Source: Bosea vaviloviae
Lineage (GTDB): Bacteria > Pseudomonadota > Alphaproteobacteria > Rhizobiales > Beijerinckiaceae
DNA: 64,000 nucleotides
Assembly (NCBI RefSeq): GCF_001741865.1
Contig: NZ_CP017147.1
Location: forward strand, 62,001-126,000
Direction: 5' to 3'
In this document: one piece after another, positions 44,837-64,000 of the stretch
Position numbering within the stretch: the first letter of the stretch is position 1
Layout: every line of letters begins with the position of its first letter
Program-made: the position numbers and the translations under genes
The notes under the pieces: generated by a model
Seen by the model: only the letters and a program-made list of their open reading frames with translations
Database searches by the model: none
What the model was told of the DNA's origin: nothing

Positions 44837-44841
44837 GACCA
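44820..44841. promoter_or_regulatory. 22-bp palindrome, likely NagR/DasR-type operator
   Basis: TGGTCTTGTC-TT-GACAAGACCA is a perfect inverted repeat between the divergent nagA and murA genes. The outer TGGTCT/AGACCA matches the known consensus of HutC-type GlcNAc regulators (DasR, NagR/YvoA). A gene of that family ends the murA operon. Confidence 0.78.
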
Positions 44842-44877
44842 GTATAACACCATTCAGCTCGTCACAAGAGGAACCTC

Positions 44878-46137
44878 ATGGATCGGCTCAGGATCGTCGG
44901 CGGCAAGCGGTTGGAAGGCGCGGTGACCATCGCCGGCGCCAAGAATGCGAGTCTGCCCCAGATCGCAGCAGCCCTTTTGAGCGACCAGCCGCTGACGCTG
45001 ACCAACCTCCCCGCCGTGAGCGATATCGACAACATGCTGGCGGTCGTCCACGCTCATGGCGCGACGGTCACGCGCCATGATCCTCATTCCGCCACGATCG
45101 ACGCCGGCCCGGCCAATGGCGGCGAAACGCCCTACGACACCGTCCGGCGCATGCGCGCGACCGTGCTCGTGCTCGGCCCCTTGCTCGCCCGTTTCGGAGC
45201 GACGCGGGTCTCGCTGCCCGGCGGCTGCGCCATCGGCGCGCGCCCGGTCGACCTCCACGTCAAGGCATTGATGGCGCTGGGCGCCAGGATCGAGATCGAA
45301 GGCGGCACGATCGTCGCCGAGGCAAATGCGGGGCTGAAGGGCGCGCGCATCGTGCTCGGCTCGCCCTCGGTCGGCGCGACCGAGACCGCGATGATGGCCG
45401 CGACCCGCGCCAAGGGCGAGACCGAAATCGTCAACGCGGCGCGCGAGCCGGAGGTCGCCGACCTCGCCGATTGCCTGATCGCCATGGGCGCGCGCATCGA
45501 AGGCGCCGGCACGCACCGCATCCTGATTGCCGGCGACACCGATTTCCGCGCAACGCAACACCAGATCATCCCCGATCGCATCGAGGCCGGAACCTATGCC
45601 ATCGCCGCCGCCATCACCGGCGGCCAGCTTGAACTGACCCATGCCAGGCTCGAACAGATGGCCTCGGTCGCGCAGGTGCTCGAGGCAGCCGGCGTCAGGA
45701 TCTGGCCGGGCGATCGCGGCCTGATCGTCTCCGGCGACGGCGCCCTCACCGGCGTCGACATCAGCACCGAGCCCTATCCGGGTTTCCCGACGGATCTGCA
45801 GGCGCAGTTCATGGCCCTGATGACGCAAGCCGCCGGCGCGGCGATGATCCGCGAGACCGTATTCGAGAACCGGTTCATGCATGTGCCCGAGCTCCAGAGG
45901 CTCGGCGCCAACATCACGCTGCAGGCGACGACCGCGCTGGTGCGCGGCGGCTCGCCCCTCAGGGGCGCGCAGGTGATGGCGACCGATCTGCGCGCCTCGG
46001 TCTGCCTCGTTCTCGCGGCCTTGGTCGCCGAGGGCGAGACCATCATCAACCGCGTTTACCATCTCGATCGCGGCTATGAGCAGCTCGACGTCAAGCTCCG
46101 CCGCTGCGGCGCCGACATCACCCGATTGAAGGATTGA
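44878..46137 (+). CDS. murA: UDP-N-acetylglucosamine 1-carboxyvinyltransferase (MurA)
   Basis: A 419-residue enolpyruvyl transferase, exactly the usual length. The N-terminal MDRLRIVGGKRLEGAVTIAGAKNASLP carries the catalytic Lys22-type residue. The PEP-adduct cysteine is in LPGGCAIGARPVDLH (near 116), and EPYPGFPTDLQAQFMAL supplies the catalytic Asp. It transfers enolpyruvate from PEP to UDP-GlcNAc in peptidoglycan synthesis. Placement in an amino-sugar salvage operon (nagK, murQ, gntR follow) is unusual. It may be a second MurA rather than the housekeeping copy. AGAGG precedes the ATG. Confidence 0.93.
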   Translation: MDRLRIVGGKRLEGAVTIAGAKNASLPQIAAALLSDQPLTLTNLPAVSDIDNMLAVVHAHGATVTRHDPHSATIDAGPANGGETPYDTVRRMRATVLVLGPLLARFGATRVSLPGGCAIGARPVDLHVKALMALGARIEIEGGTIVAEANAGLKGARIVLGSPSVGATETAMMAATRAKGETEIVNAAREPEVADLADCLIAMGARIEGAGTHRILIAGDTDFRATQHQIIPDRIEAGTYAIAAAITGGQLELTHARLEQMASVAQVLEAAGVRIWPGDRGLIVSGDGALTGVDISTEPYPGFPTDLQAQFMALMTQAAGAAMIRETVFENRFMHVPELQRLGANITLQATTALVRGGSPLRGAQVMATDLRASVCLVLAALVAEGETIINRVYHLDRGYEQLDVKLRRCGADITRLKD

Positions 46138-46142
46138 GCGCG

Positions 46143-47018
46143 GTGTCGGGGCAAGCGCGTCATTATCTGGGCGTCGATGGCGGCGGCACGGGCTGCCGTG
46201 CGCGGCTTGAGACAGAAACGGGCGAGGTGCTCGGCCAGGGTCTTTCCGGTCCGGCGGCGACGCGGTTCGGCATCGACAAGGCCTGGGCCTCGATTATGAC
46301 GGCAGTCGAGGCCGCCCTGGAGGAGGCCGGTATTGCCGGTGAGGCGCGTGGCGCCATCCGCGCCGGCATCGGGCTTGCGGGGCTCGGCCGCAAGGGCGCG
46401 CTGGAGGCTCTGCAGGCCCTGCCCCACCCCTTCGCCGGCATCGCTTTCACCAGCGACGGCTTCGCCGCCTGCCTCGGCGCGCATTCCGGCCAGGACGGCG
46501 CGATCGTGATCGCCGGCACGGGCTCGATGGGGATCGGCCGCGTCGAAGGGCGCGAGCTGCGTGTCGGCGGCTATGGCTTCCCGATTTCGGACGAAGGCAG
46601 CGGCGCCGATCTCGGCCTGCAAGCCGTCAGGCTCGCCTTGCGGGCCCATGACGGCCGCCATGAACGCACCGCTTTGCTCGGCGAAGTGATGCAGCGCTTC
46701 CAGAACGAGCCGGCGGAAGCCGTCGCCTGGATGGACCGCGCCACGGCGACGGACTACGCGACCTTCGCTCCCCTGGTGATGCGCCATGCCAATCAGGGCG
46801 ACGCAGCCGGCCGGCGCATCGTCCAGAGCGCGGCCGAGCAGATCGACGGGCTCGTGCGCGCCTTGTTCGACCAGGGCGCGCCGCGCGTCACACTGCTCGG
46901 CGGCCTGTCGAGCGCGATCGAACCCTGGCTCTCGCCCGATGTCCGCCATCGCCTCAAGCCCGCCGACGGCGATGCAGTCTCGGGCGCGATCATCCTGGCG
47001 CGGACGCTGGCCGCCTAG
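46143..47018 (+). CDS. N-acetylglucosamine kinase-like ATPase (BadF/BcrA family)
   Basis: A 291-residue ASKHA-fold kinase. The phosphate loop is LGVDGGGTGCRARL, followed by GIGLAGLGRKGALEAL, IVIAGTGSMGIG (second phosphate motif) and GGYGFPISDEGSGADLGLQAVRLA, all typical of bacterial GlcNAc/GlcN kinases of this family. The GTG at 46143 is taken because AAGGA lies 9 bases upstream; the TTG inside the murA stop lacks one. In the murA-murQ operon it probably makes GlcNAc-6-P for NagA and for sensing by the GntR regulator (inference). Confidence 0.85.
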   Translation: MSGQARHYLGVDGGGTGCRARLETETGEVLGQGLSGPAATRFGIDKAWASIMTAVEAALEEAGIAGEARGAIRAGIGLAGLGRKGALEALQALPHPFAGIAFTSDGFAACLGAHSGQDGAIVIAGTGSMGIGRVEGRELRVGGYGFPISDEGSGADLGLQAVRLALRAHDGRHERTALLGEVMQRFQNEPAEAVAWMDRATATDYATFAPLVMRHANQGDAAGRRIVQSAAEQIDGLVRALFDQGAPRVTLLGGLSSAIEPWLSPDVRHRLKPADGDAVSGAIILARTLAA

Positions 47019-47181
47019 AGATTGTTATGGACTCCGGGGACGCCTTCGCCAGCGCGTCCATGCCGGTCAGCGGCGCCATGCCGAGGCAGGCGGCGACGAA
47101 GGGAAACCGTGCGATCCGGCTGTCCCTGGCGATGCGTCAGACCCGGCTGGAGCGGATTGGCGATTGCGATCGCTTGGACTA

Positions 47182-47223
47182 ATTGGTATCTCTGAATTCG
47201 TAAAAGGCATTTAACTGGTATCT
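47182..47223 (+). promoter_or_regulatory. Two directly repeated GntR-like half-sites before murQ
   Basis: ATTGGTATCT (47182-47191) and ACTGGTATCT (47214-47223) lie 32 bp apart, about three helical turns, just before the murQ start codon in the 222-bp nagK-murQ gap. They match the recurring (A/T)TTGGTA(T) box of the window. Confidence 0.5.
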
Positions 47224-47240
47224 TGAGAGCTTGCCGCAAA

Positions 47241-48134
47241 ATGGCGACCGAAGACGTCGATCCCCGATTCACCGATCTCGACGCCTGGCCCTTCGCCAGC
47301 GCCATGGAAGCGATGTGGGACGGCCAGATGGCCGCCGTCGCCGCCGTCCGCAGCGCCCTGCCCGCGCTGACCGCAGCAGCCGCTGCGGCAGCCGAAGTTC
47401 TCGGCGAGAGCGGGCGACTGGTCTATGTCGGAGCGGGCACCTCGGGCCGCGTTGCGGTGCAGGACGGCGCCGAATTGCCGCCGACCTTCGACTGGCCGCT
47501 CGAACGCATCGTCTTCGCCATGGCCGGCGGCCAGGACGCATTGATCTCCAGCGTCGAAGGCGCCGAGGACGACACCGCCGACGGCATCCGGCGCATGGAA
47601 GAAGCGCGGATCGGCCCTGCCGATGTGGTGATCGGAGTAGCGGCCAGCGGCACGACGCCCTTTACCGTCGCGGCGGTCCAGCGCGCGACGGAGCGCGGTG
47701 CGGTGACGATCGGCATCGCCAACAATGCCGGCGCGCCATTGCTGGCGGCGGCGCGGTTTCCGGTGCTGGTCGAGACCGGCAGCGAATTGATCGCGGGCTC
47801 GACCCGGATGAAGGCCGGCACCGCCCAGAAGGTCGTGCTCAATCTGATCTCGACCGGCATCATGCTCCGGCTCGGCCGCGTCTATCGCGGCATGATGGTC
47901 AATATGCGCACCGCCAATGCCAAGCTGAAGCTGCGGGCGCAGCAGATGGTTGCGCGCATCGCCGGCTGCGATGTCGAGGAGGCGGCGGCTGCGCTGCAGA
48001 TCACGCATGGCGACATCAAGCTCGCGACGCTGGTCGTGCTCGGCTATGCGCCCGAGGCGGCGGCCGGGATTCTCGCGCGCAGCGGCGGCAATCTGCGCGT
48101 CGCGCTCTCCGATATCGCCGACGGGACGCTCTGA
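47241..48134 (+). CDS. murQ: N-acetylmuramic acid 6-phosphate etherase MurQ
   Basis: A 297-residue SIS-domain lyase that splits MurNAc-6-P into GlcNAc-6-P and D-lactate during wall recycling. Signatures are LVYVGAGTSGRVAVQDGAELPPTF (active-site Glu), GAEDDTADG, GVAASGTTPFTVAA, GSELIAGSTRMKAGTAQK and VNMRTANAKL. The N terminus is more divergent than in E. coli. The ATG at 47241 is used because the upstream TTG extension overlaps a repeated box. Its stop shares bases with the next ATG (TGATG), so translation is coupled to the regulator. Confidence 0.93.
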   Translation: MATEDVDPRFTDLDAWPFASAMEAMWDGQMAAVAAVRSALPALTAAAAAAAEVLGESGRLVYVGAGTSGRVAVQDGAELPPTFDWPLERIVFAMAGGQDALISSVEGAEDDTADGIRRMEEARIGPADVVIGVAASGTTPFTVAAVQRATERGAVTIGIANNAGAPLLAAARFPVLVETGSELIAGSTRMKAGTAQKVVLNLISTGIMLRLGRVYRGMMVNMRTANAKLKLRAQQMVARIAGCDVEEAAAALQITHGDIKLATLVVLGYAPEAAAGILARSGGNLRVALSDIADGTL

Positions 48135-51170: not shown

Positions 51171-51776
51171 GACGCGGTTTGACTGACCTGGTTTCGACTG
51201 CAAGCGCGGATGGAGACTGCCCGTGCATCGGGCGGACGATGCCAGCGTCCATCTGGTTCTGAATTGGTAATCTTCGATAATACCAATTGCAAGCCACTTA
51301 CGCCGATACTCGCCCGCAGCTCCGAAATCCTCAGGGGCGTCGGCAGGAAATAGCACGCCCGCAATCGCATCGCCGGCGTCAACGACAGCCCATGCCGCAT
51401 ATCGATCCATGGCCAGCAGCCCGTGCTGCCGCCATCGACGCAAAGAGGGCGCTTCACGAGCCCTGAGTGGAATTACCTCTGCCGCGCCGATCGTTCAATG
51501 CTTCCATCGCGGATTGGGCTGCCCTTAACGATGATCCGGTCCATCCTTGACTATCTACCCCAAGCTGCGGCTATCTGGTTTCATATTGGTATTGCTGCAG
51601 GCAATCGTACCGATGATTTCGCCTTGCCTCGCCGCAGGTATTCGCGAGCGGCCGCTGTGCCGCACGCAAGCGCTCGAACCCATAAGTTTGAACCCAAGGC
51701 TTTCCCAAACCCAAGGCTTACCAAACCCAAGGCTTTACCGAACCAAAGGCTTTGCAGCATCCCCAGGAGGCAAGCG
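51171..51776. promoter_or_regulatory. 606-bp divergent control region (permeases / Ubl-E1 unit)
   Basis: No gene is supported here. The frame running into the Ubl gene translates to low-complexity sequence without family features. AATTGGTA (51262-51269) and TACCAATT (51281-51288) form a perfect 8-bp inverted repeat with an 11-base spacer. A second TATTGGTATTGC box at 51584-51595 faces GCAATCGTACCGAT. From 51686 to 51756 four degenerate 16-17 bp units of the type CAAACCCAAGGCTT are repeated. A strong AGGAGG ribosome site for the Ubl gene lies at 51763-51769. Confidence 0.6.
51686..51756 (+). repeat. Degenerate 16-17 bp tandem repeat
   Basis: About four copies of a unit like TTTCCCAAACCCAAGGC lie head to tail just upstream of the Ubl gene. 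The unit length is not a multiple of three, consistent with non-coding DNA. Confidence 0.75.
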
Positions 51777-52058
51777 ATGAGCAGCACGACAAGCCCCGCC
51801 AGCGATGAGACGACGTCCAGCGCCGTCGTCATCTTCGTCAATCGCAGGCGGTTCGAGGTCAAGCCGGGAGTGACAGGCGCCGGCATCGCCGCCCTGCTCG
51901 GGGTGCCGGCGGAGAACGCTGTGGTCGAGATCGAGGCGGGCGATGGCGAACCCACCGAGTTGGTGCTGGATGCGCCCGTCGCGCTCGCACCTGGCCAGCA
52001 ATTCCTGGTTACGCGCCAATATGTGATGGGCGGATCGCCGGCCGGAGACGGCGCGTGA
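51777..52058 (+). CDS. Ubiquitin-like (multiubiquitin-domain type) protein with Gly-Gly and tail
   Basis: A 93-residue protein. After a 16-residue Ser/Thr-rich leader it shows a beta-grasp pattern: VVIFVNRRRFEVK, a helix TGAGIAALLGV, strands AVVEIEAGDGEPTELVL, and a last strand FLVTRQYVMGG. The layout recalls bacterial multiubiquitin/Ubl domains associated with E1-JAB genes. The Gly-Gly (85-86) is followed by the 7-residue tail SPAGDGA, so it would need trimming before adenylation. A strong AGGAGG site precedes the ATG. Its stop overlaps the E1 gene (GTGA). The alternative is a ThiS/MoaD-like sulfur carrier proprotein. Fold assignment is by pattern only. Confidence 0.75.
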   Translation: MSSTTSPASDETTSSAVVIFVNRRRFEVKPGVTGAGIAALLGVPAENAVVEIEAGDGEPTELVLDAPVALAPGQQFLVTRQYVMGGSPAGDGA

Positions 52059-53557
52059 ACGCCCTCCATCGCATGGCGGAGCCGACGGCGCTGTTGCGCT
52101 TCGCCTCGCCGGAGTTCGACCTCCTAGAGGGCCTCGTCTTCCGACGCTATCCGCGCAAGGAATGGGCGAGTTTCGCGCGTTTCGGCTGGCGCGAGACGCC
52201 GGAGGGACTCGTCGTGACCCTGGCTGCGCTCGACGAGCCGGCTGAGGGCGATCTCGACGACGGCGTCGCGGATGTGAAGATCACGGCCGCCTATTCGCGG
52301 CGGATCGCGCTCGCAGCGGAGCGGCATGCGCTTGGCGTCGGCATCATCCACTCGCATCCCGAAGGCGCTCCGCCCCGGCCAAGCTCCATCGACGATGAGA
52401 TGGATCGTTATTACGCGGAGTATTTTGCCGATTTCGCGCCGGGCCGCCCCTATGTCAGCATCATCATGTCAGAGCTCGCAGGCGACACCGGCAAGGAGAT
52501 CGCGGTCTCGGGCCGGATCTTCCACGGCGGCGTCTGGCGGCAGGCGACACGCGTGGCGGCGGCGCGCCGGCCCGACGTCGTCGCCTGGCCGCGTGGCGAG
52601 CGCCCACCCGCCCCTCCGATACCGCCCGAGCGCGTGGCCCGGCTTACCAGCGCATTCGGCAAGGAGGCCTATCAGCGGCTTCAGCGCGCGACCGTGGCGC
52701 TGATCGGCGCCGGGGGCACCGGCTCGGCCGCGATCCCGATCCTGGCGCGCGCCGGGGTCGGACGCCTGATCGTGATCGATTCCGACCATGCCAGCGAATC
52801 CAATCTGGAAAGACTGCATGGCAGCGTGCCGCAGGACGCGGCGGATGCGGTGCCCAAGGTCACGATCGCGCGTCGCCATGTCGCCGGCATGTCGCCCGAC
52901 GTGATCGTCGAGACCTGGATCGGCCGGCTGCCCCAACCCGAGATCATCGACGCCGTGATCCAGGCCGATGTCCTGATGGGCTGCACCGACCAGCATACGA
53001 GCCGGCTCGCAGTTTCCGACATCGCGCGGCGCTACGCCATGCCGGCGCTCGACATCGGCGGGTTGATCGAAGGCGCGAACGGGGTGGTCACGGGGCAGAT
53101 CGTCCAACTCGTCCGCTTCCTCCCGGAAGATCCCTGCCCGCAGTGCCGGGGCATGATAAACCCGACCCGTTTCCGACAGGAGATGATGTCGACCGACGAG
53201 CGCGAGGCTGCCAAGGCCGAGGCTGAGGCTGCCGTCGCGCGCGGCGAGCGGCCAGACCCGATCGCCGGCGCGATCCCACAGATCGACACGGTGGGCTACA
53301 TCACCACGACGGCGGGAACGCTGGCGGCGGGCTTCGTCATCGGCTGGCTGACCGGGCGCTTCGATCCTAAATTCGAGCGCCTCCAGCTCGATCTCGTGGC
53401 CGAATGCCTCGGCGCCGTCGACCGTCCGCAGCGCCGCAAGGACGATTGCGTCTGCGGCCGGGTGCGCGGCTTCGCCGATCAGGCTGCAGACACGGCTCCC
53501 TTCCAGCCGCCGGTCCATTGGGAGCCGGCCCGAAAGATCGTGGCGGAAAAAGTCTAG
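52055..53557 (+). CDS. JAB (JAMM) peptidase fused to E1-like ThiF adenylyltransferase
   Basis: A 500-residue two-domain enzyme. The N-terminal JAB metalloprotease (about 10-170) has the zinc motif HSH at 99-101, Ser110 and Asp113, one residue more than the usual H-x-H-x7-S-x2-D spacing. The E1/ThiF domain (about 195-490) has the ATP loop GAGGTGS from 218, IDSDHASESNLERLHG, and GCTDQHTSR. A zinc tetrad fits C361, C364, C465 and C467. I see no obvious catalytic cysteine in the crossover loop, so it may adenylate only. The JAB half could trim the Ubl tail that the E1 half then activates. GTG 52055 is coupled to the Ubl stop; an ATG lies at 52073. No E2 is nearby. Confidence 0.85.
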   Translation: MNALHRMAEPTALLRFASPEFDLLEGLVFRRYPRKEWASFARFGWRETPEGLVVTLAALDEPAEGDLDDGVADVKITAAYSRRIALAAERHALGVGIIHSHPEGAPPRPSSIDDEMDRYYAEYFADFAPGRPYVSIIMSELAGDTGKEIAVSGRIFHGGVWRQATRVAAARRPDVVAWPRGERPPAPPIPPERVARLTSAFGKEAYQRLQRATVALIGAGGTGSAAIPILARAGVGRLIVIDSDHASESNLERLHGSVPQDAADAVPKVTIARRHVAGMSPDVIVETWIGRLPQPEIIDAVIQADVLMGCTDQHTSRLAVSDIARRYAMPALDIGGLIEGANGVVTGQIVQLVRFLPEDPCPQCRGMINPTRFRQEMMSTDEREAAKAEAEAAVARGERPDPIAGAIPQIDTVGYITTTAGTLAAGFVIGWLTGRFDPKFERLQLDLVAECLGAVDRPQRRKDDCVCGRVRGFADQAADTAPFQPPVHWEPARKIVAEKV

Positions 53558-53585: not shown

Positions 53586-54437
53586 TCAGACCCCCTCGCC
53601 CTCGCCATTGGCCTCGCTCGGGCTGGAACGCAGCGTCGCGACGAAATCATAGCGGTCGCCGCGATAGGCAGAGATGGTGAACTCGATGGGGCGGCCATTG
53701 GCAAGGAAGGCGCGGCGCTCGATCCGGAGCACGGCGCTGCCGGGCGGGATCATCAGCAGCTTGGCTTCCTGCGTGGTGGCGAGCGAAGCGTGCAGACGCT
53801 GCACGCCCCGCGCCGGCCGGCAACCAGCGGTCGCGAGCGCCGCATAGAGCGAATCCCCCACCAGATCCGGCGAGGACAGCAAAGAGGCGGGCACAGCCGC
53901 GATCTCGATGGCCAGCGGTTCGTTCTCGGCCGTGCGGACCCGGGAGAGGCGCAGCACGGACTCGCCGGGATCCAGGCCCAGCGCCAGCGCCTCGCTGGAG
54001 GAGACCCGCGCGATCTCTTTGGAGAGCCAGGTCGAGCCGGCTCGGCGCCCGCGCGAGGACATCTCCTCGGTGAAGCTCGCCAGCACGGAGAGAGGCTGCT
54101 CGATGCGGCGGGTGACATAGGTGCCCGAGCCTTGCCGCCGTGTCAGGATGCCCTCCCGCAGCAGCACCTCGATGGCGCGGCGCACCGTGATACGCGCGAA
54201 ATTGGTCCAGGCCGCGAGGTCGCGCTCCGACGCCAGCGCCTCGTCGGCGCGAAAGACGTCGCGCTGGATCAGGTAGCGAAGGGCCGAGGCGAGCTGCAGA
54301 TAGCGCGGTGTAGCGCCTTCGGGGTTGAGTGCCGCGAGGAGCTCCGTCCGCACATTGCGCCGGACGGCATCGCCCGCTTCAGATGCTTGTTCGGCGACCG
54401 TCGACCGGGCGCGATTCGACGGCTGTTTCGTCATCAT
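53586..54437 (-). CDS. GntR family regulator, HutC/UTRA type (second copy)
   Basis: A 283-residue regulator with a longer N-terminal leader than usual. The winged helix is in LASERDLAAWTNFARITVRRAIEVLLREGIL, and the UTRA domain ends RAFLANGRPIEFTISAYRGDRYDF. Its effector half is strikingly like the regulator at 48134 (shared RVRTAENEPLAIE-type, RGVQRLHASLAT and YRGDRYDF blocks). It is convergent with the JAB-E1 gene (28-base gap) and upstream of the TIM-barrel gene, so it is the probable regulator of the 51-62 kb cluster. ATG 54437 or 54434 are both possible. Confidence 0.88.
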   Translation of the reverse strand: MMTKQPSNRARSTVAEQASEAGDAVRRNVRTELLAALNPEGATPRYLQLASALRYLIQRDVFRADEALASERDLAAWTNFARITVRRAIEVLLREGILTRRQGSGTYVTRRIEQPLSVLASFTEEMSSRGRRAGSTWLSKEIARVSSSEALALGLDPGESVLRLSRVRTAENEPLAIEIAAVPASLLSSPDLVGDSLYAALATAGCRPARGVQRLHASLATTQEAKLLMIPPGSAVLRIERRAFLANGRPIEFTISAYRGDRYDFVATLRSSPSEANGEGEGV

Positions 54438-54725: not shown

Positions 54726-55760
54726 TCAGACCGCCGGCGCCTGGCCGAACAGCGCCGCGAGCCGCTCGAGCGAGCGGAGCTGGGCGCCGTTGTCGACATG
54801 CGTTTCACCGGCTCCCGGCTCGACCTCCAAGACAAGCGTCGGCGTCCCCTGTCCCAGCCGCTCCGGCAGCCGCGTGAAAGGCAGATTGCCCGTACCGATT
54901 TCCAGCCCCTCGCTGACGATGCCCTCGACGAGACGCGGCTCAGGCAGGTTCGGCTCTGCAAGTTCGGCCGCGTCAAGCAGGCAGGCATCCGAGATATGAA
55001 GATAGCTCATCGCGGGATCGACGAAATCGAAGGGCGCCAGCCATTCCGCCTGATCGAGATCGTCCGGCGTGATCCAGGCGAAACGCGGATCGTCCGCCGT
55101 CTCGGTGAAGTGCAGCTTGCGGCGGTTGAACAGATTGGCCGAGAGCGTGGCATGCGCCACGTCGACGAAGGGCTCGACATTGGCCAGCCCTTCCTGCGCG
55201 CAGAAGCGGCGGAAGGCGCTGATCTCCCAGGGAAAGAAATGGTCGAGCGGTCCGCTGAGGTAATTCCGGCCGTCGCGCGGCAAGAGCGAGTAGTGCCCGA
55301 TATTCTCGACCAGCAGCCTGATTTCGGGCGCGAGACGGGCAAGGTCACGGATGATGGCATTAAAGCGCCTGATCGCCTCCGGCTTCGAGAATGCGCGGGG
55401 CGGGCCATCCCCGAAAACCAGGTCGAAATAGCGATGGATCACGACCGCCTCGGCACCGATCTCCGCCGCGAAGGCAATCGCCCTCTGGCATTGGCCCGCG
55501 TCGAAATCGACCTGCGTCACCACGGGCACCTGCTGCACGGGCACATGCACGATCAAGCGCTCGACCGCATGGTGCTCCCGGAGCCGGGCCACCGTCGCGC
55601 GCGAGGCGGCCAGGCCCGCAGCCGTGTCGATGTCGCGCGCGCCGAAGGTATGCAGCTCCAGCACGATGGGTCGGCCGGCGCGGGCAAGCCATGCGGCGCG
55701 CGCCTCCAGTTGAGCGGGATCGGCCAGCGCGGCCTTCAGGGCGAAAACGGCGTTGGTCAT
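54726..55760 (-). CDS. TIM-barrel sugar isomerase/endonuclease-like protein
   Basis: A 344-residue protein of the xylose-isomerase-like (AP endonuclease family 2) barrel fold, judged from successive strand-end residues. These include VLELHTFGARD, LIVHVPVQ, AVVIHRYFD, LLVENIGHYS, EPFVDVAHA, YLHISDACLL and LVLEVEP. The ENIGH and DVAHA segments give plausible metal ligands. The substrate is unknown. GGGAGGG precedes the ATG. It is divergent from the flavoenzyme gene and may belong to a small-molecule pathway with it (inference). Confidence 0.65.
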   Translation of the reverse strand: MTNAVFALKAALADPAQLEARAAWLARAGRPIVLELHTFGARDIDTAAGLAASRATVARLREHHAVERLIVHVPVQQVPVVTQVDFDAGQCQRAIAFAAEIGAEAVVIHRYFDLVFGDGPPRAFSKPEAIRRFNAIIRDLARLAPEIRLLVENIGHYSLLPRDGRNYLSGPLDHFFPWEISAFRRFCAQEGLANVEPFVDVAHATLSANLFNRRKLHFTETADDPRFAWITPDDLDQAEWLAPFDFVDPAMSYLHISDACLLDAAELAEPNLPEPRLVEGIVSEGLEIGTGNLPFTRLPERLGQGTPTLVLEVEPGAGETHVDNGAQLRSLERLAALFGQAPAV

Positions 55761-56148: not shown

Positions 56149-57393
56149 ATGCAGAATGCTAGCGTATTTCGATCATTCTCCGCCCCGCCCAGCGCCGCGA
56201 CGGAGGAGTCTCGTGCTGCAGCGCTGACGCGGGCCCGGACGCTGATCCCCCTGCTGCGCAGCAAGGCCGGGGACGGGGATCGCGATGCACGGCTCTCGCC
56301 GATCGTCATGGACGCGATGCGTTCGGCCGGGCTGTTCCGGTTGCTGCAGCCGCTGCGTTATGGCGGGCCGGAACTCGAGCCGGAGAGCTTCTTCGTCATC
56401 CAGGCAGCGCTCGCCGAAGGCGACATGTCTGCCGGCTGGCTGCAGGGCGTGATGGGAGTGCTCGCCTTCCACCTCGCATTGTTCGACGAACGCGCGCAGG
56501 ACGATGTCTGGGGCGAGGATCCCGACGCTCTCCTCGCCTGCAGCTACATGCCGACAGGCAAGGCGACGCCGGTCGGCGGCGGCTTCCAGCTCAGCGGACG
56601 CTGGGGCTTCGCCAGCGGCTCCGACTATTGCGACTGGCTGATGCTCGCCGGCAGTGTCAGCCCGGAGACGGCCGGACAGGAAGCGGGCGCGCCAGGTGCG
56701 CCGCCGGATTTGCGCGTCTTCCTCGTGCCCCGCGCCGACGCCCTCGTGCATGACAACTGGGACACCACGGGGCTGCGCGGCACCGGCAGCCAGGATGTCA
56801 CGGTGGAGAGCATCTTCGTTCCCGAGCACCGCACGCACCGGCATGTCGACCGCTTCCTCGGCACCAGCCCAGGGCTCGCGATCAACACGGCCCCACTCTA
56901 CCGGCTGCCGCTGCCGCAACTGCTGTTCCGCACCATCACCATGCCGGCCGTGGGGGCACTGCGCGGATTCCTCGACGCCTTCCTCGATCATAGCCGCGCC
57001 CGCGTCGCCGTCACCGGCCAGGCCGTGGCGCGCGATCCGGTGGCCCAGCTCATCGTCGCCGAGGTCGAGGCTTCGCTCGACGAGATCACCGTCATGATGG
57101 GGCGCAACTTCGCACGGCTGACGGATTATGCCCGTCGCGGCGAGCAGGCGCCGATCCCGCAGCGCATGGTCTACCGCCTGCAGGCGACGATGGCGGCCGA
57201 ACGCTGCACCTTGCTTGCCGCGCGGCTGTTCAAGGCCTGCGGCGCCTCCGGGCTGGCGAAGAGCCATCCTTTCGGGCGGTATCTCGCCGATATCGCCGCC
57301 GCACGTCAGCATGCGGCTAATCAAAACGAAGCTCAGGGGCGCGCGCTTGGCGCATTGATGCTTGGCGTCGGCGCAGAAGATACAGTATTATAG
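56149..57393 (+). CDS. Acyl-CoA dehydrogenase-like flavin monooxygenase/oxidase
   Basis: A 414-residue flavoenzyme of the acyl-CoA-dehydrogenase fold, closest in pattern to HsaA/DszC/SfnB-type FMN monooxygenases. Features are the N-terminal helical part with GLFRLLQPLRYGGPELEP, the flavin/substrate strand block GGGFQLSGRWGFASGSDYCDW, and DNWDTTGLRGTGSQDVTVESIFVPEHRT. The last is the hallmark W-x-x-x-G-x-x-G-T-G-S turn. A C-terminal helical domain follows. It would oxygenate or oxidise a small molecule with reduced flavin from a partner reductase, which is not in the window. The ATG at 56149 follows GGGAG. Confidence 0.78.
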   Translation: MQNASVFRSFSAPPSAATEESRAAALTRARTLIPLLRSKAGDGDRDARLSPIVMDAMRSAGLFRLLQPLRYGGPELEPESFFVIQAALAEGDMSAGWLQGVMGVLAFHLALFDERAQDDVWGEDPDALLACSYMPTGKATPVGGGFQLSGRWGFASGSDYCDWLMLAGSVSPETAGQEAGAPGAPPDLRVFLVPRADALVHDNWDTTGLRGTGSQDVTVESIFVPEHRTHRHVDRFLGTSPGLAINTAPLYRLPLPQLLFRTITMPAVGALRGFLDAFLDHSRARVAVTGQAVARDPVAQLIVAEVEASLDEITVMMGRNFARLTDYARRGEQAPIPQRMVYRLQATMAAERCTLLAARLFKACGASGLAKSHPFGRYLADIAAARQHAANQNEAQGRALGALMLGVGAEDTVL

Positions 57394-57550: not shown

Positions 57551-58600
57551 ATGTCCGTCGCCACGCCGCCGCCAATGCCCTTCACCGTCGGCTTCGACGA
57601 CCGCGACGAGGACGAGGTCATGGCGCGCTGGCGCAAGGTGCTGCGCTCGCAACGCTGGAGCCATGGCGAACAGATCGAGGAGTTCGAAGCGCTATGGCGG
57701 GACTGGAACGGCCTCGCCGCCGTCGCTTTCGACAACTGGGCCGGGGCCGCGTTGGCCGCGCTGGATTTCGTCGGCGTCGCCGGCGAGACGGTGTTGTGCC
57801 CGTCGAACACTTTCTTGGCGACGCCGCGCGCCTCCCAGCTCGCCGGCGCCGAAATCGTGTTCTACGACTGCAACCGCGAGGATCTCTGCGGCTCCTATGA
57901 CGATTTCGTCGCCAAGGCCGAGATGGTGAAGCCCAAGCTCGCCTGGATCGTTCATATCGGCGGGCACATCGCTTTCGACATCGAGCGCATCGCCACCTAT
58001 TGCCGCGAGAAAGGCATCGTCCTGTTCGAGGACTGCGCCCATGCCGCGGGCGCGGACTGGAACGGCCGCAAGCCCGGGAGCTGGGGCGAGGTTGGCCTCT
58101 ACTCCTTCTATGCCACCAAGACGATCTCCACGGCCGAAGGCGGCATCGCCGTCAGCACCAATGACGAGATGGTGCGGCATCTGCGCAGCTACCGCGATTA
58201 CGGGCGCGGCTCGCGCTACAAGGTGCGCAGCCTCAATCACCGTCTGGATGAGTTCCGGGCCGCGCTGGGCGTGGTGCAGACCCGGCGCCTCGGCGAGATC
58301 GTGGCCTGGAAGCAGGCCTATGCCCGCGACGTGCTGGACCCGCTCCACCCCAACCGCGTGCGCCTGCCCGCCGGCATGTCGAGCGGCTTCTACAAATACA
58401 TCGTCTTCGATGAGATCCCGGTCTCGACCGGCAAGGTCTACGAATTGCCGTGCCATCGCATATTCGGTCAGGACGTCTCGCTGCCGAACACGGAATGGGC
58501 CGCCGCGAACCATTGGTGCGTGCCGATCTATTACCCGCGCGAGGGTGGTTTGCCGGCACAGGACGAGACGAAATTTCTCCGGATGGGGGCTCCGGCTTGA
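57551..58600 (+). CDS. DegT/DnrJ/EryC1/StrS family PLP aminotransferase
   Basis: A 349-residue PLP enzyme of the sugar aminotransferase family. The pattern is RSQRWSHGEQIEEFEALW, a phosphate-binding turn, VLCPSNTFLATPRAS, the cofactor Asp in LFEDCAHAAGADWNGR (about 161) and the Schiff-base Lys in YSFYATKTISTAEGG (about 190). The family usually aminates keto-sugars on nucleotides or modified amino-sugars. It is followed by a radical SAM gene, a pairing known from sugar and aminocyclitol biosynthesis. CCGGAG precedes the ATG. Confidence 0.88.
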   Translation: MSVATPPPMPFTVGFDDRDEDEVMARWRKVLRSQRWSHGEQIEEFEALWRDWNGLAAVAFDNWAGAALAALDFVGVAGETVLCPSNTFLATPRASQLAGAEIVFYDCNREDLCGSYDDFVAKAEMVKPKLAWIVHIGGHIAFDIERIATYCREKGIVLFEDCAHAAGADWNGRKPGSWGEVGLYSFYATKTISTAEGGIAVSTNDEMVRHLRSYRDYGRGSRYKVRSLNHRLDEFRAALGVVQTRRLGEIVAWKQAYARDVLDPLHPNRVRLPAGMSSGFYKYIVFDEIPVSTGKVYELPCHRIFGQDVSLPNTEWAAANHWCVPIYYPREGGLPAQDETKFLRMGAPA

Positions 58601-58938
58601 GCCTCCGGCGCGGTGGATCGTTTGACGTAGTGGTATTAGTTTGATACTAAAGTGGTCCTATTAGAAGACGCGAAAAACAATCTCTCCCGGCTGTCGAGGC
58701 GGCGTCCGCGTGACGCGTCGCGAGGCCATGATCAAACGCGGAATGGAGGTTGACCGGCGCAGCGAGCGCCGTGGTGGGGCGTTTCGAGGTTGCACAGGGT
58801 TGGCCGCTGCAGGGCGGCAAGTATTTCTGCCGTCACAAGTATTTCTGCCGTCAAGAGCAGGCCTGGCGCATGCGCCAGGCGGAAGGCAGGTCGGCCATGG
58901 CAACCGTGCAAAGGCAATTCAACCCGGAGGCCAAGCCT
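58601..58938. promoter_or_regulatory. 338-bp gap with regulated promoter and tandem repeat
   Basis: A sigma70-like promoter, TTGACG (58622-58627) and TACTAA (58645-58650) with 17-base spacing, encloses the inverted element GGTAT-N7-ATACT. An 18-bp tandem duplication follows at 58819-58854. In-frame ATGs at 58750 and 58897 could start the radical SAM protein earlier, but the strong GGAGG site at 58926-58930 favours 58939. Confidence 0.5.
58819..58854 (+). repeat. 18-bp tandem duplication upstream of radical SAM gene
   Basis: AAGTATTTCTGCCGTCAC is followed directly by AAGTATTTCTGCCGTCAA (17 of 18 match). If translated it would read KYFCRH-KYFCRQ. Confidence 0.88.
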
Positions 58939-59895
58939 ATGCTGCATGCAAACACCGCCCAGGGGGCCGCTCCTTCGCCCGTCTGGCTCTGGCTCGATCC
59001 GACGACACGCTGCAATCTGGCGTGTCGCCTTTGCTACACCAAGGAAAGTCACGGCAAGCTCGACCTCGATCCGGCCGATCTGGAGCAGGCGCTGATCAAA
59101 CTCAAGGATTCACCAGCGCTCGAGGTGAAGACCATCCACCTGAACTGGCGCGGCGAGCCCTTGATGAACAACCGTTTCCACGAGCTGCTGGCGGTCACGC
59201 GCGACATCATGCCGGACGTCCAGCTGCAATGGCACACCAACGGCACGATGCTGACCAGGAAGCGGGCGCGGCAGCTGCTCGAAGTGAAGCACCGGCACAA
59301 GATTTTCGTCTCGATCGACGGCGGCAACGCGCTGTCTCACGATCTCAACCGCGGCGAGGGTACGTTCCTGCGCACGCTGCGTGGGCTCGAGATCTTGCTC
59401 GAGGAGGCGGCGGGCGACGAGCACGTCAAGGTCGGTGTTTACCAGATCGATCTCGGCGAGCCGATCGAGAGCTATGATCCGGCTTTCCTGCGCCTGCTCG
59501 AACGCGTCGACGACCACGTCAAGGTCACGCCGCTGCTGCCCGGCGGCGCGCATCACGACGTCGCCTCCCTGTCGGATCTCGAAAGCGACGAGAAGCTGCA
59601 CCAGCGCATGATGCAGGACGTCAACCCCAAATTGCCCGTGCCGAGCGGTGCCTGCTTCTGGGCCGGTCATGTCATGTGCCTGGCGCCGGACGGCAAGGTT
59701 TCGATCTGCATCATCAGCCACGGCCAGCACGGCGTGATCGGCAATCTCTTCGAGGAGAGCGCCGAGCAGGTGCTGGAGCGCGGCCTGGCCTTCCGCGACC
59801 GCATGGAAACGCAGGGCCGCTGCAGCGTCGGCCATTGCAAGACCTGCCGGAAGCCGGTGGGTCAGGTCTACGCCAAGCACCGCCTGGCCGCCTGA
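58939..59895 (+). CDS. Radical SAM/SPASM domain enzyme
   Basis: A 318-residue iron-sulfur enzyme. The radical SAM cluster motif C-x3-C-x2-C is CNLACRLC at residues 25-32, preceded by WLWLDPTTR. HLNWRGEPLMNNRF is the SAM-binding GGE-like strand. A C-terminal SPASM-type cluster region has GACFWAGHVMCLAPDGKVSICII and GRCSVGHCKTCRKP, enough cysteines for an auxiliary 4Fe-4S cluster. Such enzymes modify peptides, amino acids or sugars. No obvious precursor peptide is next to it, though the Ubl protein 7 kb away is a small-protein candidate (inference). Start 58939 is chosen for its ribosome site. Confidence 0.87.
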   Translation: MLHANTAQGAAPSPVWLWLDPTTRCNLACRLCYTKESHGKLDLDPADLEQALIKLKDSPALEVKTIHLNWRGEPLMNNRFHELLAVTRDIMPDVQLQWHTNGTMLTRKRARQLLEVKHRHKIFVSIDGGNALSHDLNRGEGTFLRTLRGLEILLEEAAGDEHVKVGVYQIDLGEPIESYDPAFLRLLERVDDHVKVTPLLPGGAHHDVASLSDLESDEKLHQRMMQDVNPKLPVPSGACFWAGHVMCLAPDGKVSICIISHGQHGVIGNLFEESAEQVLERGLAFRDRMETQGRCSVGHCKTCRKPVGQVYAKHRLAA

Positions 59896-59973
59896 GGCGA
59901 TGAACCGTGATGCGCGCCGCGCTGAATTGACTATGAATCACCAGGATCTGGGGACGGAAAGGGAGTGCGACGC

Positions 59974-61113
59974 ATGAAGCCGGTTTGGGCTATCGGGTTA
60001 ATGACCGGGACAGTTCTCGACGGGATGATCGACGTCGCGTCGATCCGCACCGATGGAGAGAATGTGGCGGAGTTCGGCCACTGGAAGCTGGCTCCGTACA
60101 AGACCGACATCCGTGCCCTGCTCGCGGCCGCGGTCGAGGCGGCGCTGGCCTGGCGCTTCGAAGGGCCGGAGCCCGCCATCTTCGCCGAAGCCGAGGCGGC
60201 ATTGACCCGGGCGCAGTCCGAGGCGGTGGCCGATTTCATGGCGGAGGCCGGCCTGACGCCGTCCGATGTCGCAGCTGTCGGCTTCCACGGGCAGACAGTG
60301 CTGCACCGCGCGCCCGAGCCCGGCCGGCATGGCGACACACGCCAACTCGGCGACGGGCGCCTGATGGCCGATAGGCTCGGCGTCGATGTCGTCTACGATT
60401 TCCGCACCGCCGACATGCGCGCCGGCGGCCATGGCGCGCCGCTCTCGGCGAGCTATCACGTCGCGCTGCTGCGCGGCATCAATGCGGGGCCCGAAACTGC
60501 CGCGCTGAACCTCGGCGGGGTCGGTAACATCACCTGGTGGGCCGGTGGCGAGGAGTTCCACGCCTTCGACACCGGGCCGGCCAACGGACCGATCAACGAC
60601 TGGATCATGCGCCACGGCAAGGGCGAGATGGATGTCGACGGAGCACTGGCGCTCAGCGGCACGGTCGATGAGGAGCGGCTCGCCCGCTTGCTCGACCACC
60701 CCTACCTGACCGCGCCCTATCCGAAATCGCTCGACCGCTACGATTTCACCGCCGACATGGCCGAGGGGCTTTCGCTGGCAGACGGGGCAGCGACGCTGAC
60801 CGCCTTCACCGCCGGCACGGTCGGGCGCTCGCTCGACCAGTTGCCGCAGCGGCCGACGAAGCTCATCGTCTGCGGCGGCGGGCGCAAGAACCCGGCGATC
60901 ATGGCGGCGCTGCCGAAGCGTGCCGGGGCCGAGGTCGTTCCAGCCGAAGCGGTGGGCTTCCGCGGCGATGCGGTCGAGGCCGAATGCTTCGCCTATCTCG
61001 CGGTCCGCGCTTTGCGCGGCATGCCGTTGAGCTTTCCCCTCACCACCGGCGTCGCCGGGCCGATGACCGGAGGGCAGATCGCGACCCGCCCGGCCAGCGC
61101 CAGGCGGGCCTGA
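59974..61113 (+). CDS. anmK: Anhydro-N-acetylmuramic acid kinase AnmK
   Basis: A 379-residue kinase that converts anhydro-MurNAc to MurNAc-6-P, feeding MurQ (gene at 47241). The ATP loop is [20 protein letters not shown], the Rhizobiales form of the SGTS-DG motif. Catalytic Asp-type [34 protein letters not shown] and [13 protein letters not shown] are present. ATG 59974 follows GGGAG with 8-base spacing; a GTG lies 9 bases upstream. It sits between the radical SAM gene and sufE, away from the other salvage genes. Confidence 0.93.
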
Positions 61114-61166: not shown

Positions 61167-61637
61167 ATGACCATGCTCGACAGCCCGATCGAGGAACCCA
61201 TTGCCGAAGTCGCGGCGCGACTCGAAGCCGAGTTCGCCGCCTTCGCGGATTTCACCGAGCGGGTCGGGCATGTGCTCAGCCTCGGCCGCCGCCTGCCGCG
61301 TCTGGCGCCGGAGGATTGCTGCGAGGACAACCGCGTCAAGGGCTGCCAGTCGCAGGTCTGGGTCGTGGCCGAGCATGACGCCGATCAGGACCGCATGCGG
61401 CTCGCGCTGGATTCCGATGCGGTGCTGATGCGCGGCCTGCTCGCCATGCTGCTCAGGCTCTATGGCGATCGGCGGCCGGACGAGATCCTGGCCTACTCGC
61501 CCGAGGTGGTCGAGCGGCTGCTCGTCGGCCGCAGCCTCGCGCCAAGTCGCGCCAACGGGCTGTATCTGGTGGTCAAGCGCATCAGGGCGGCCGCAGCGGC
61601 CGCGTCGGGCGGGCGTCAGATGGCCCACCAACCATGA
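61167..61637 (+). CDS. sufE: SufE family sulfur acceptor protein
   Basis: A 156-residue protein that takes persulfide sulfur from a cysteine desulfurase. The active cysteine is in VKGCQSQVWVV (about Cys60), preceded by RRLPRLAPEDCCEDNR and followed by LLAMLLRLYGDRRPDEIL, matching SufE closely. The usual length is about 140. No desulfurase gene is present. Its stop overlaps the first possible start of the E1-like gene, so sulfur delivery to the E1/MoaD pair is an attractive reading (inference). CCGGAG precedes the ATG. Confidence 0.92.
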   Translation: MTMLDSPIEEPIAEVAARLEAEFAAFADFTERVGHVLSLGRRLPRLAPEDCCEDNRVKGCQSQVWVVAEHDADQDRMRLALDSDAVLMRGLLAMLLRLYGDRRPDEILAYSPEVVERLLVGRSLAPSRANGLYLVVKRIRAAAAAASGGRQMAHQP

Positions 61638-61678
61638 GCGGCAGCGCGCCAGGATCGCATGCAAGGAGGAGCGCCGGA

Positions 61679-62524
61679 ATGCCGATGCCCCAGACGCTGA
61701 GTCCCGAGGAGCTGCAATGGTATCGGCGGCAAACCGTGCTGCCGGAGATCGGCGTCTCCGGCCAGGAAAAGCTCAAGGCGGCCCGGGTCCTGGTGATCGG
61801 CGCCGGCGGGCTGGGCTCGCCGCTGCTGCTGTATCTCGCCGCGGCCGGCATCGGCACGCTGGGCATCGTCGATTTCGACTATGTCGAGATCTCCAACCTG
61901 CACCGGCAGATCCTGCATTCGGTCGAGCGGCTCGACATGCCCAAGACCGAGAGCGCCGAGAGGTCGCTGCGCGCGCTCAACCCGCATGTTGCGATCATCC
62001 GCCACGACATGCCCATCAGCGCGGAGAACGCGGCAGGGCTGGTGCGCGACTACGATATCGTCGCGGACGGCAGCGACAATTTCGCCACCCGGGACGCCGT
62101 GCATTCGGCCTGCCTTGCGGCACGGATCCCGCTGGTCAGCGCCGCGGTACAGCTCACCGACGGGCTGCTTACCACCTTCAAGGCCTATCTCGGCCGGCCG
62201 CACCCTTGCTACCGTTGCCTGTTCCCGGACGCGCCTCCGGCGGCGGTGACCCCGTCCTGCTCCGAAATCGGCGTGCTCGGCCCGGCGGTCGGCGCGCTCG
62301 GCTCGATGCAGGCCATCGAGGTGATCAAGGAGATCCTGGGCACGGGGCCGAGCCTTTCGGGCACGCTGATGATGTACGACGCCTGGCACTGCGCGCTCGA
62401 CGCCATCGCCCTGCCGCGCCGGGCGGGTTGCCTGACCTGCGAAGCGATCGCTCAGCCGCCCGTCACCGGCGGGAACAGCCCAACCTCGTCATCGGAGGCA
62501 AGCTCGTGCGAATTCTCGACGTAA
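61679..62524 (+). CDS. MoeB/ThiF/HesA family E1-like adenylyltransferase
   Basis: A 281-residue enzyme that adenylates the C-terminal glycine of a sulfur carrier. RRQTVLPEIGVSGQEKL, the ATP loop GAGGLGSP (about 42-49), VDFDYVEISNLHRQ, DGSDNFATR, zinc-binding CYRC and CLTC, and the loop cysteine in TPSCSEIGVLG are all as in MoeB. No rhodanese domain follows. The last 24 residues after CEAIA run over the 3' end of the opposite-strand MoaD gene and look like a read-through tail. ATG 61679 is taken for its AAGGAGG site; a 15-residue longer form from ATG 61634 is possible. Confidence 0.9.
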   Translation: MPMPQTLSPEELQWYRRQTVLPEIGVSGQEKLKAARVLVIGAGGLGSPLLLYLAAAGIGTLGIVDFDYVEISNLHRQILHSVERLDMPKTESAERSLRALNPHVAIIRHDMPISAENAAGLVRDYDIVADGSDNFATRDAVHSACLAARIPLVSAAVQLTDGLLTTFKAYLGRPHPCYRCLFPDAPPAAVTPSCSEIGVLGPAVGALGSMQAIEVIKEILGTGPSLSGTLMMYDAWHCALDAIALPRRAGCLTCEAIAQPPVTGGNSPTSSSEASSCEFST

Positions 62525-62828: not shown

Positions 62829-64000
62829 ATGTCGGCATCGCTTGACGGGGTAAAGGTAATCGACCTCTCGCGCTATATTGCCGGGCCGTTCTGCGGTCAG
62901 CTTCTGGGCGATCTCGGCGCCGATGTGGTGAAGGTCGAACGCATCGACGGCGGCGAGGAGGGCCGGCGCGTCGGCGAGACGGTGGAGGGAGACACGCTGT
63001 TCTTTCTCTCTGCCAACCGCAACAAGCGCGGCTTCGCCATCGATTTCCGCGACAAGGAGGGCCAGGCGCTGCTCCGGCAGCTCGCCGCTACCGCCGACAT
63101 CCTGATCGAGAACTTCCGGCCCGGCACGATGGAGGCCATGGGGCTCGGCTGGGACGTGCTGAGCGCGCTGAATCCGCGCCTGATCATGGTGCGCATCTCA
63201 GGCTTCGGGCAGGAGGGGCCGCTCGCCCAGCATCCCTGCTTCGACGGCGCCGCCCAGGCTCAGTCCGGCGTCATGGCGATGACCGGACCGGCAGGCGGCG
63301 CGCCGACCATGGCGGGCGTCTTCGTCTGCGACTATTCGACCGCGCTCTACGGCGTTATCGGCACCCTCGCGGCGCTGCATGCGCGCGAGACCAGCGGCCG
63401 CGGCCAGGTCGTCGAGGCGACCCTGATGGATAGCGGCATGGCGCTGATGACCACGGCGATCCCGGAGCGCATCCTCTTCGGCCGCGAGCCGGAGCGCCTT
63501 GGCAACCGTGACCGCTACCTCTCGCCCTCGCACTGCTTCCGCAGCCGGGACGGCATCTGGATCTATATCGTTGCCGGCAACGACGTGCATTTCCCGCGGC
63601 TCGCCGCCGCGATGGGCCGGCCGGAGCTGGCGCAGGATGCGCGCTTCGCCACCTTCGTCGCCCGCAATGCCAATGTCGCCGAGCTGGAGGCGATCATCGA
63701 TGCCTGGGCGGCCGAGCGCGATGGCGAAGCCGTTCTCGAGATCATCCACGCGGCCGACATCCCCTGCGAGCGCGTCGCCACCATCGCCGACGTCATCGCC
63801 AATCCGCAGGTGGTGCATCGCAAGCAGATCGTCGACGTGCCTCACCCGGTGATGGGTTCAGTGCCGTTCCAGGCGCCTGCGGTGCGGCTGCATGGCACGC
63901 CCACCGTCATTCGCCGCGGCGCGCCCGGCCTCGGCGAGCACGGCGCCGAGATCCTGTCGGACTGGCTCGGCATGAGCACCCCCGAGATCGAACGGTTGCA
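62829..64000 (+). CDS. CaiB/BaiF family (family III) CoA transferase, 3' end outside window
   Basis: At least 390 residues are encoded, and the frame stays open to the window end. It begins SLDGVKVIDLSRYIAGPFCGQLLGDLGADVVKVE, the family hallmark, followed by LSANRNKRGFAIDFR, ENFRPGTMEAMGLGW, RISGFGQEGPLAQHPCFD and GRGQVVEATLMDSGMALM, where the catalytic Asp of the family lies. It moves CoA between carboxylic acids. The start at 62829 has GAAGGA 8 bases upstream; the nearer ATG at 62821 is in another frame. Confidence 0.9.
   Translation, partial: MSASLDGVKVIDLSRYIAGPFCGQLLGDLGADVVKVERIDGGEEGRRVGETVEGDTLFFLSANRNKRGFAIDFRDKEGQALLRQLAATADILIENFRPGTMEAMGLGWDVLSALNPRLIMVRISGFGQEGPLAQHPCFDGAAQAQSGVMAMTGPAGGAPTMAGVFVCDYSTALYGVIGTLAALHARETSGRGQVVEATLMDSGMALMTTAIPERILFGREPERLGNRDRYLSPSHCFRSRDGIWIYIVAGNDVHFPRLAAAMGRPELAQDARFATFVARNANVAELEAIIDAWAAERDGEAVLEIIHAADIPCERVATIADVIANPQVVHRKQIVDVPHPVMGSVPFQAPAVRLHGTPTVIRRGAPGLGEHGAEILSDWLGMSTPEIERL

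Follow-up and report, generated by a model that had tools for sequence, protein, structure and literature searches.

Analysis of a 64,000-nucleotide window of Bosea vaviloviae (GCF_001741865.1, contig NZ_CP017147.1, positions 62,001-126,000 of the forward strand) showed a two-gene unit encoding a 93-residue ubiquitin-like protein (Ubl) and a JAB-E1 fusion protein of the Bub type, set in a conserved metabolic gene cluster. Sequence comparison gave an even chance that this Bub-derived Ubl serves as a sulfur carrier, or as a similar carrier of an activated carboxylate, in the pathway encoded by the cluster. A more tentative proposal, somewhat short of an even chance, is that a conjugation-type Ubl, now without an E2 and in some lineages without its protease, has reverted to being the dedicated carrier of a thiocarboxylate or other activated carboxylate in a biosynthetic gene cluster of a new class, one that combines a sulfur relay with a radical SAM enzyme and with muramic-acid and amino-sugar enzymes. 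A role as carrier explains the data most simply, given that no E2-like partner was found and that SufE, a cysteine-bearing MoeB-like E1 and a type III coenzyme A (CoA) transferase were always present. The initial annotation had noticed the two-gene unit, which was confirmed, and had overlooked both the protein family (Bub, or operon type 6e) and the large conserved cluster.

The Ubl scored 30.9 bits against Multi_ubiq (PF14452; cut-off 24.5) in the Pfam scan, its predicted structure was a beta-grasp, and the fold search returned multi-ubiquitin structures, which upholds its description as a beta-grasp Ubl. Multi_ubiq was its sole Pfam match at E values up to 1, which places it outside ThiS/MoaD, and a profile of the Ubls gave no PDB match below an E value of 0.32. 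The protein had been read as a proprotein with a tail after Gly-Gly, and the Gly-Gly was conserved in all 28 Ubls compared. A beta-grasp Ubl with Gly-Gly and a capped tail, together with a JAMM protease, is the combination seen in thioacid systems of the Qbs/Pdt/Ptm type. The 500-residue JAB-E1 protein matched ThiF and Prok-JAB and resembled BubCD by sequence and fold, as expected of the fusion first proposed. Each of its JAMM residues (E36, H99-S-H101, S110, D113) was kept in at least 119 of 121 aligned sequences. The crossover loop, noted earlier as lacking an obvious catalytic cysteine, had no conserved one: 117 of the 121 sequences contained no cysteine there, and a crossover cysteine was likewise not conserved in the JAB-E1 proteins of the E2-bearing branch described below. 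A profile of the C-terminal half of the E1 gave four PDB matches (E values 0.32 to 0.9), regarded as chance, so Tyr370 of BubCD (mutated in 9eav) could not be mapped onto the Bosea protein. One relative of 781 residues (P0092) carried PF18928 in addition to JAB and E1 in its precomputed domains.

A scan of a species-genome collection with two peptide patterns, which relatives without these patterns escape, showed 38 loci; 23 were retained as true relatives and 15 (L030-L044) were dropped as weak E1-only matches. A search of the genus Bosea gave four genomes, two of them already among the 23 loci, for a total of 25 genomes. The survey of homologous neighbourhoods that the initial annotation had proposed divided these cleanly: 8 genomes had a Prok-E2_E-like protein and 17 alphaproteobacteria, including B. 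vaviloviae, had no match. The eight E2-bearing genomes (L014-L020, L029) were all metagenome-assembled genomes (MAGs), labelled as several phyla, and the other branch included Bosea, Salinarimonas, Nitrospirillum, Caulobacter, Sphingopyxis, Stappia and Chelatococcus. The Prok-E2_E-like gene sits between those for the Ubl and JAB-E1, and in L029 it is fused behind the Ubl domain. The seven free-standing proteins had no cysteine at an invariant position and thus match the inactive E2/RWD protein of operon type 6e, as given in the accessible part of PMC1779556.

A profile built from these seven proteins recovered all eight E2-bearing genomes at E values of 8e-35 or better, L029 being the only one outside the profile. 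Searched genome-wide in the 17 alphaproteobacterial genomes, it gave no match (best E value 0.09), a negative that a BubB of another family could escape. A PF14462 search missed three of the seven sister-branch genes that the profile recovered. Against the PDB the profile found nothing up to an E value of 1, so the tie to solved BubB is putative. Beside the Ubl/JAB-E1 pair there was neither an E2 gene, as first noted, nor an active E2 with a catalytic cysteine of the CBASS type II or Bil kind. The description of the unit as E2-less therefore stands beside the pair and, for the sister-branch protein, in 17 of 17 whole genomes; it does not extend to every E2 family, since the B. vaviloviae chromosome encodes elsewhere, near 4.186 Mb, an unrelated 597-residue fusion of Prok-E2_B and ThiF (E1). 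This fusion presumably resembles the Cap2-type E2-E1 fusions of CBASS.

The tail of the Ubl and the metal site of the JAB domain were compared in 16 clusters with both ends readable, Sphingopyxis being excluded. All nine clusters with a full JAMM site encoded a Ubl that continued for 2 to 7 residues beyond Gly-Gly, and in all seven that had lost the JAMM residues (Caulobacter, four Stappia, Chelatococcus and one Rhodobacteraceae MAG) the Ubl ended exactly at Gly-Gly. The Caulobacter JAB domain could still be recognised, with other residues in place of its ligands; the N-terminal part of the other six was too diverged for a good alignment, and the one JAMM-less protein scanned (L025) gave no JAB match by Pfam. 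In a tree of the E1 part, calculated without four near-duplicate rows, two changes were counted (Sphingopyxis and the truncated P0021 excluded), and tail and JAMM site changed together at both. The JAMM-less clusters retained the E1 ATP-site residues and the Ubl Gly-Gly. Three more presumed Ubl/JAB-E1 pairs (P0125/P0004, P0126/P0007 and P0128/P0012) were tailed with an intact JAMM. Because the match is exact and is what a maturation role predicts, the fused JAB is supported as the tail-processing enzyme it had been suggested to be. Judged from these sequences, it probably acts as a maturation protease, and any deconjugating role is probably dispensable: if the JAMM site can be lost once the tail is gone, those cells would have no need for JAB-E1 to strip the Ubl from targets. 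In the E2-bearing branch the JAMM motif was intact in 8 of 8 genomes and a tail was present on six of the seven free-standing Ubls. The remaining Ubl (L020) ended at Gly-Gly, yet its JAMM was intact; this single case fits an extra deconjugating role where the E2-like protein persists.

For the neighbourhood comparison, up to 20 kb on each side (less at contig ends) was fetched in all 17 genomes and 26 window proteins were used as queries; two (GntRa and GNAT) were unusable and their rows were not used. Eight metabolic genes lay within about 11 kb of the JAB-E1 gene in 17 of 17 genomes, and their order and strand varied among lineages, which argues that the linkage is selected. The Ubl was found in 16 of the 17 clusters, the Sphingopyxis contig stopping inside JAB-E1. 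Dedicated sulfur delivery with an E1, as in thioacid systems, was represented at the level of gene presence by SufE and the MoeB-like E1 in every cluster, and the latter had a crossover-loop cysteine in 17 of 17 genomes. A member of the type III CoA-transferase family was present in 17 of 17 clusters, and the protein scanned was single-domain. The MurA, BadF kinase and MurQ genes were absent only from three clusters on contigs of 15-16 kb. One MAG match to the monooxygenase-like protein covered just 13%, and the TIM barrel had no PDB match up to an E value of 0.01. Within the genus, JAB-E1 occurred in 4 of 67 Bosea species, and the radical SAM gene in exactly those four. At the eight E2-bearing loci none of the metabolic genes was seen within up to 6 kb on each side, several contigs being short. 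In samples of the class (385 genomes) and of the order (397 genomes), JAB-E1 and the radical SAM gene were found solely in B. vaviloviae; the sampling had little power, with few candidates scored per genome. The cluster is rare, and in the class and order samples there was no cluster without the Ubl/JAB-E1 pair. The coordinates of all features are shown in Table 1.

Table 1. Features of the Ubl/JAB-E1 pair and of the surrounding cluster in the window, with the evidence for each (fractions are clusters or genomes with a match)
Feature	Position	Strand	Evidence
Ribosome-binding site AGGAGG of the Ubl gene	51765..51770	+	Sequence
Single-domain Ubl, BubA/Multi_ubiq type, 93 residues	51777..52058	+	PF14452 above cut-off; beta-grasp model; multi-ubiquitin fold matches
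Gly-Gly of the Ubl, residues 85-86	52029..52034	+	Invariant in 28/28 aligned Ubls
C-terminal tail SPAGDGA after Gly-Gly	52035..52055	+	Tail/JAMM comparison across clusters
JAB-E1 fusion, BubCD homologue, 500 residues	52055..53557	+	ThiF and Prok-JAB matches; BubCD likeness by sequence and fold
JAMM metal site H99-S-H101 ... S110..D113, E36 upstream	52349..52393	+	Residue conservation
E1 adenylation domain: GxGGTG, D242, D244, N250, R253, K268, D312	52622..53479	+	Conservation
Zinc-type cysteines C361, C364, C465, C467 within the E1 adenylation domain	52622..53479	+	Conservation
Crossover loop of JAB-E1, no conserved cysteine	53150..53344	+	Alignment
MurA-like enolpyruvyl transferase, EPSP_synthase family	44878..46137	+	Domain scan; 14/17
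BadF-family sugar kinase	46134..47018	+	Nearest NCBIfam model N-acetylglucosamine kinase, below its cut-off; 14/17
MurQ-like N-acetylmuramic acid 6-phosphate etherase	47223..48134	+	Domain scan; 14/17
GntR/UTRA regulator	53586..54437	-	Domain scan; similar protein in 15/17 regions including B. vaviloviae, position varies
AP_endonuc_2-like TIM barrel	54726..55760	-	29.9 bits, below cut-off 31.1; 17/17
Flavin monooxygenase / acyl-CoA dehydrogenase-like, HsaA-like	56149..57393	+	NCBIfam match below cut-off; 17/17
DegT/DnrJ/EryC1 aminotransferase	57551..58600	+	Domain scan; 17/17
Radical SAM/SPASM protein	58750..59895	+	Domain scan; start probably near 58879; 17/17
AnmK, anhydro-N-acetylmuramic acid kinase	59965..61113	+	Above cut-off; 17/17 (Caulobacter match covers 46%)
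SufE sulfur acceptor, conserved GCQS motif	61173..61637	+	Domain scan; 17/17
Second E1, MoeB-like	61634..62524	+	MoeB subfamily model above cut-off; 17/17
Type III CoA-transferase, CaiB family	62829..64000	+	Gene end 19 bases beyond window; 17/17

A muramic-acid and amino-sugar set (NagA-like protein, MurA-like protein with a PGGC motif, BadF kinase, MurQ and AnmK), lying at 43601-48134 and 59965-61113 of the window, accompanies the Ubl cluster across distant genera. A SIS-domain protein is encoded just past the window end, after the CoA-transferase, and a similar protein was present in 13 of 17 neighbourhoods. In L018, L019 and L020 of the E2-bearing branch, with related pieces in L014 and L017, there was a conserved divergent neighbour of about 505 residues; two copies scanned had no significant Pfam match and one scanned had no NCBIfam match. 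A QQQDxGxSACAT motif seen by eye hints at a papain-like cysteine peptidase. Next to this divergent neighbour, genes for a small protein and for a regulator, which is of the XRE type in L020, were found repeatedly. A whole-genome PF14452 search, whose first-look filter loses weak matches, missed the window Ubl and returned only a protein of the 340-kb second contig (plasmid) of B. vaviloviae. There, a separate four-gene set encodes a Multi_ubiq protein of 249 residues, a 109-residue protein, a 172-residue protein and an E1 of 299 residues. The 172-residue protein had no significant Pfam or NCBIfam match and shows by eye a JAMM-like HTH motif, because of which the set looks like an unfused Bub operon.

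If the Ubl is a carrier, the JAB domain would first cut the short tail and expose Gly-Gly, as the matched loss suggests. The E1 domain, with an intact ATP site and no conserved acceptor cysteine, would then adenylate the terminal glycine, to judge by its conserved residues. The adenylate would bypass any E2 and be attacked by sulfur that reaches it by way of SufE, the cysteine-bearing MoeB-like E1 or both, to give a Ubl thiocarboxylate, a step suggested by the invariant co-location. By analogy with thiocarboxylic-acid biosynthesis, the thiocarboxylate could give its sulfur to the substrate of the cluster, which may be a CoA thioester on which the type III CoA-transferase acts, and the spent Ubl would be recharged without an isopeptidase. 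The cluster enzymes point to amino-sugar or muramic-acid-like chemistry. Of the two roles offered by the initial annotation, a minimal modifier or a sulfur carrier, the cluster tentatively favours the carrier over a free modifier.

Several observations weigh against the carrier reading. The Ubl belongs to the Multi_ubiq family and not to ThiS/MoaD, and its solved Bub relatives stem from a pathway described, in the accessible parts of its sources, as protein conjugation. One Ubl is accompanied by two E1 proteins, and the MoeB-like E1, with SufE, may have the substrate or a different Ubl as its target. Neither a cysteine desulfurase nor an acyl-CoA synthetase could be recognised in the conserved genes that were scanned, and the thiocarboxylate and the sulfur transfer are steps that we infer from sequence. 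A sign test on the two co-loss events gave p 0.5, and significance would take six or more independent losses. The JAMM-less N-terminal domain of Stappia and Chelatococcus may be a replacement and not a decayed JAB; JAB-E1 versions with a replaced N-terminal domain are recorded in PMC1779556. The loss of the JAMM site also demonstrates just that deconjugation by JAB-E1 is dispensable.

Protein modification without an E2, in which lysines of one cluster protein or of a few are modified directly by the Ubl adenylate made by JAB-E1, the pathway being regulated by a tag that is permanent or confined to a single target, is unlikely. It agrees with the origin of the nearest solved relatives, BubCD with BubA, and with an E1 that lacks a conserved crossover cysteine in the E2-bearing branch as well. 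The absence of an E2-like match in 17 of 17 genomes and a JAMM site dispensable twice would be odd for a reversible modifier, and the SufE and MoeB-like genes are left unexplained. SufE is also unexplained if the Ubl were a tether for small molecules, which we consider improbable: an amine of the pathway, for instance an amino sugar produced by the DegT aminotransferase, would be coupled to the C-terminal glycine, processed in the bound state and then released. An activated Ubl without an acceptor cysteine could amidate a small amine, and the invariant neighbours include DegT, radical SAM, monooxygenase-like and sugar-type enzymes; the JAMM-less clusters have no obvious releasing enzyme. A defence-type Bub module with metabolic neighbours by chance is very improbable. 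The accessible text of PMC13373217 treats Bub operons as putative systems of immunity or stress response and states that phage protection by Bub is undemonstrated. Against chance neighbours, the neighbourhood was kept in 17 of 17 genomes despite rearrangements, and the four Bosea species of 67 that have JAB-E1 also have the radical SAM gene. A defence island was rejected, as there were only partial matches to the PADLOC E1-E2 and JAB models and the neighbours were metabolic. A decaying remnant of a Bub operon is scarcely credible: an E2-like gene is missing and JAB is degenerate in some lineages, but the E1 ATP-site residues and the Ubl Gly-Gly were invariant or nearly so in the rows examined and the pair is retained across distant genera.

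Sulfur-carrier systems are the presumed ancestors of ubiquitin systems, and the Bosea pair, which belongs to a ubiquitination-like family, appears to have moved the opposite way, into metabolism; this points to bacterial reuse of a protein-tagging system in the chemistry of small molecules. Two natural experiments are on hand, a branch without the E2-like gene and a protease lost exactly where the Ubl is encoded mature, and they open to direct test the question of whether activated Ubl can come, with no E2 involved, from an E1 that has no conserved acceptor cysteine. In addition, the cluster may lead to a metabolite not yet described, containing sulfur or of the amino-sugar type, in alphaproteobacteria that can be cultured. 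The component protein families are known; what sets the unit apart is how its genes are arranged, that the E2-like partner is missing, that tail and protease site were lost together, and that the setting is metabolic. No report of an E2-less Bub pair in such a metabolic cluster was found in the literature, where coverage of subscription journals was thin.

The Bub family was reportedly described by Ye et al. 2026 and Gong et al. 2025. Compared with Citrobacter BubA/BubCD (PDB 9ea4, 9ea8, 9eae, 9eav), the Bosea pair consists of a homologous Multi_ubiq-family Ubl and a BubCD-like JAB-E1 by sequence and fold. It differs in having one Ubl domain, whereas the Citrobacter BubA fragment is residues 155-229 of a longer protein; in lacking, across its branch, a match to the sister-branch E2-like protein as a BubB, Prok-E2_E or RWD partner; and in its conserved metabolic cluster with SufE, MoeB-like E1 and CoA-transferase. 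The accessible text of PMC13373217 defines Bub as a family of putative immune pathways and puts the operons found in the hundreds. In the part of PMC1779556 available (Iyer et al. 2006), operon type 6e comprises a Ubl or polyUbl, an inactive E2/RWD protein, a JAB-E1 and a metal-binding protein Y (C-x3-C-x35-38-H-x2-C). The Bosea pair shares with it the JAB-E1 fusion and the Ubl, present in all such neighbourhoods; it differs in having no E2/RWD gene beside the pair and in a metabolic cluster that this part of the type 6e description does not mention.

PDTC and quinolobactin operons (row 4a of Table 1 in PMC1779556, accessible part) contain a Ubl, a JAB, an E1-rhodanese and a CaiB-like protein; the PDTC type combines a ThiS/MoaD-like Ubl with an E1 that includes a rhodanese domain, whereas Bosea has a Bub-family Ubl and a JAB-E1. 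The Bosea cluster further differs by SufE and a separate MoeB-like E1. The actinobacterial operon of row 4d (same part of PMC1779556), the CysO-Mec+ type, is likewise a Ubl with a JAB and no E2. The Ubl family differs and the conserved Bosea-cluster genes scanned included no cysteine synthase or ClpS; CysO/Mec, the affinity suggested initially, was rejected as nearest kin on the missing cysteine synthase and on the Ubl's match to Multi_ubiq and not ThiS/MoaD. We take the MoaZ homologue of the thioplatensimycin system to be its E1. Formation of the thioplatensimycin thioacid, in the accessible part of PMC6006322, uses a capped sulfur-carrier protein, a JAMM protease, the MoaZ homologue and a type III CoA-transferase. 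Capped Ubl, JAMM protease, E1 and a type III CoA-transferase or CaiB-like protein, as given in these partial sources, link Bosea with the thioplatensimycin, quinolobactin and PDTC systems, and thioplatensimycin (PtmS1/S2/S4-PtmU4) would by analogy be the nearest worked example of a carrier role.
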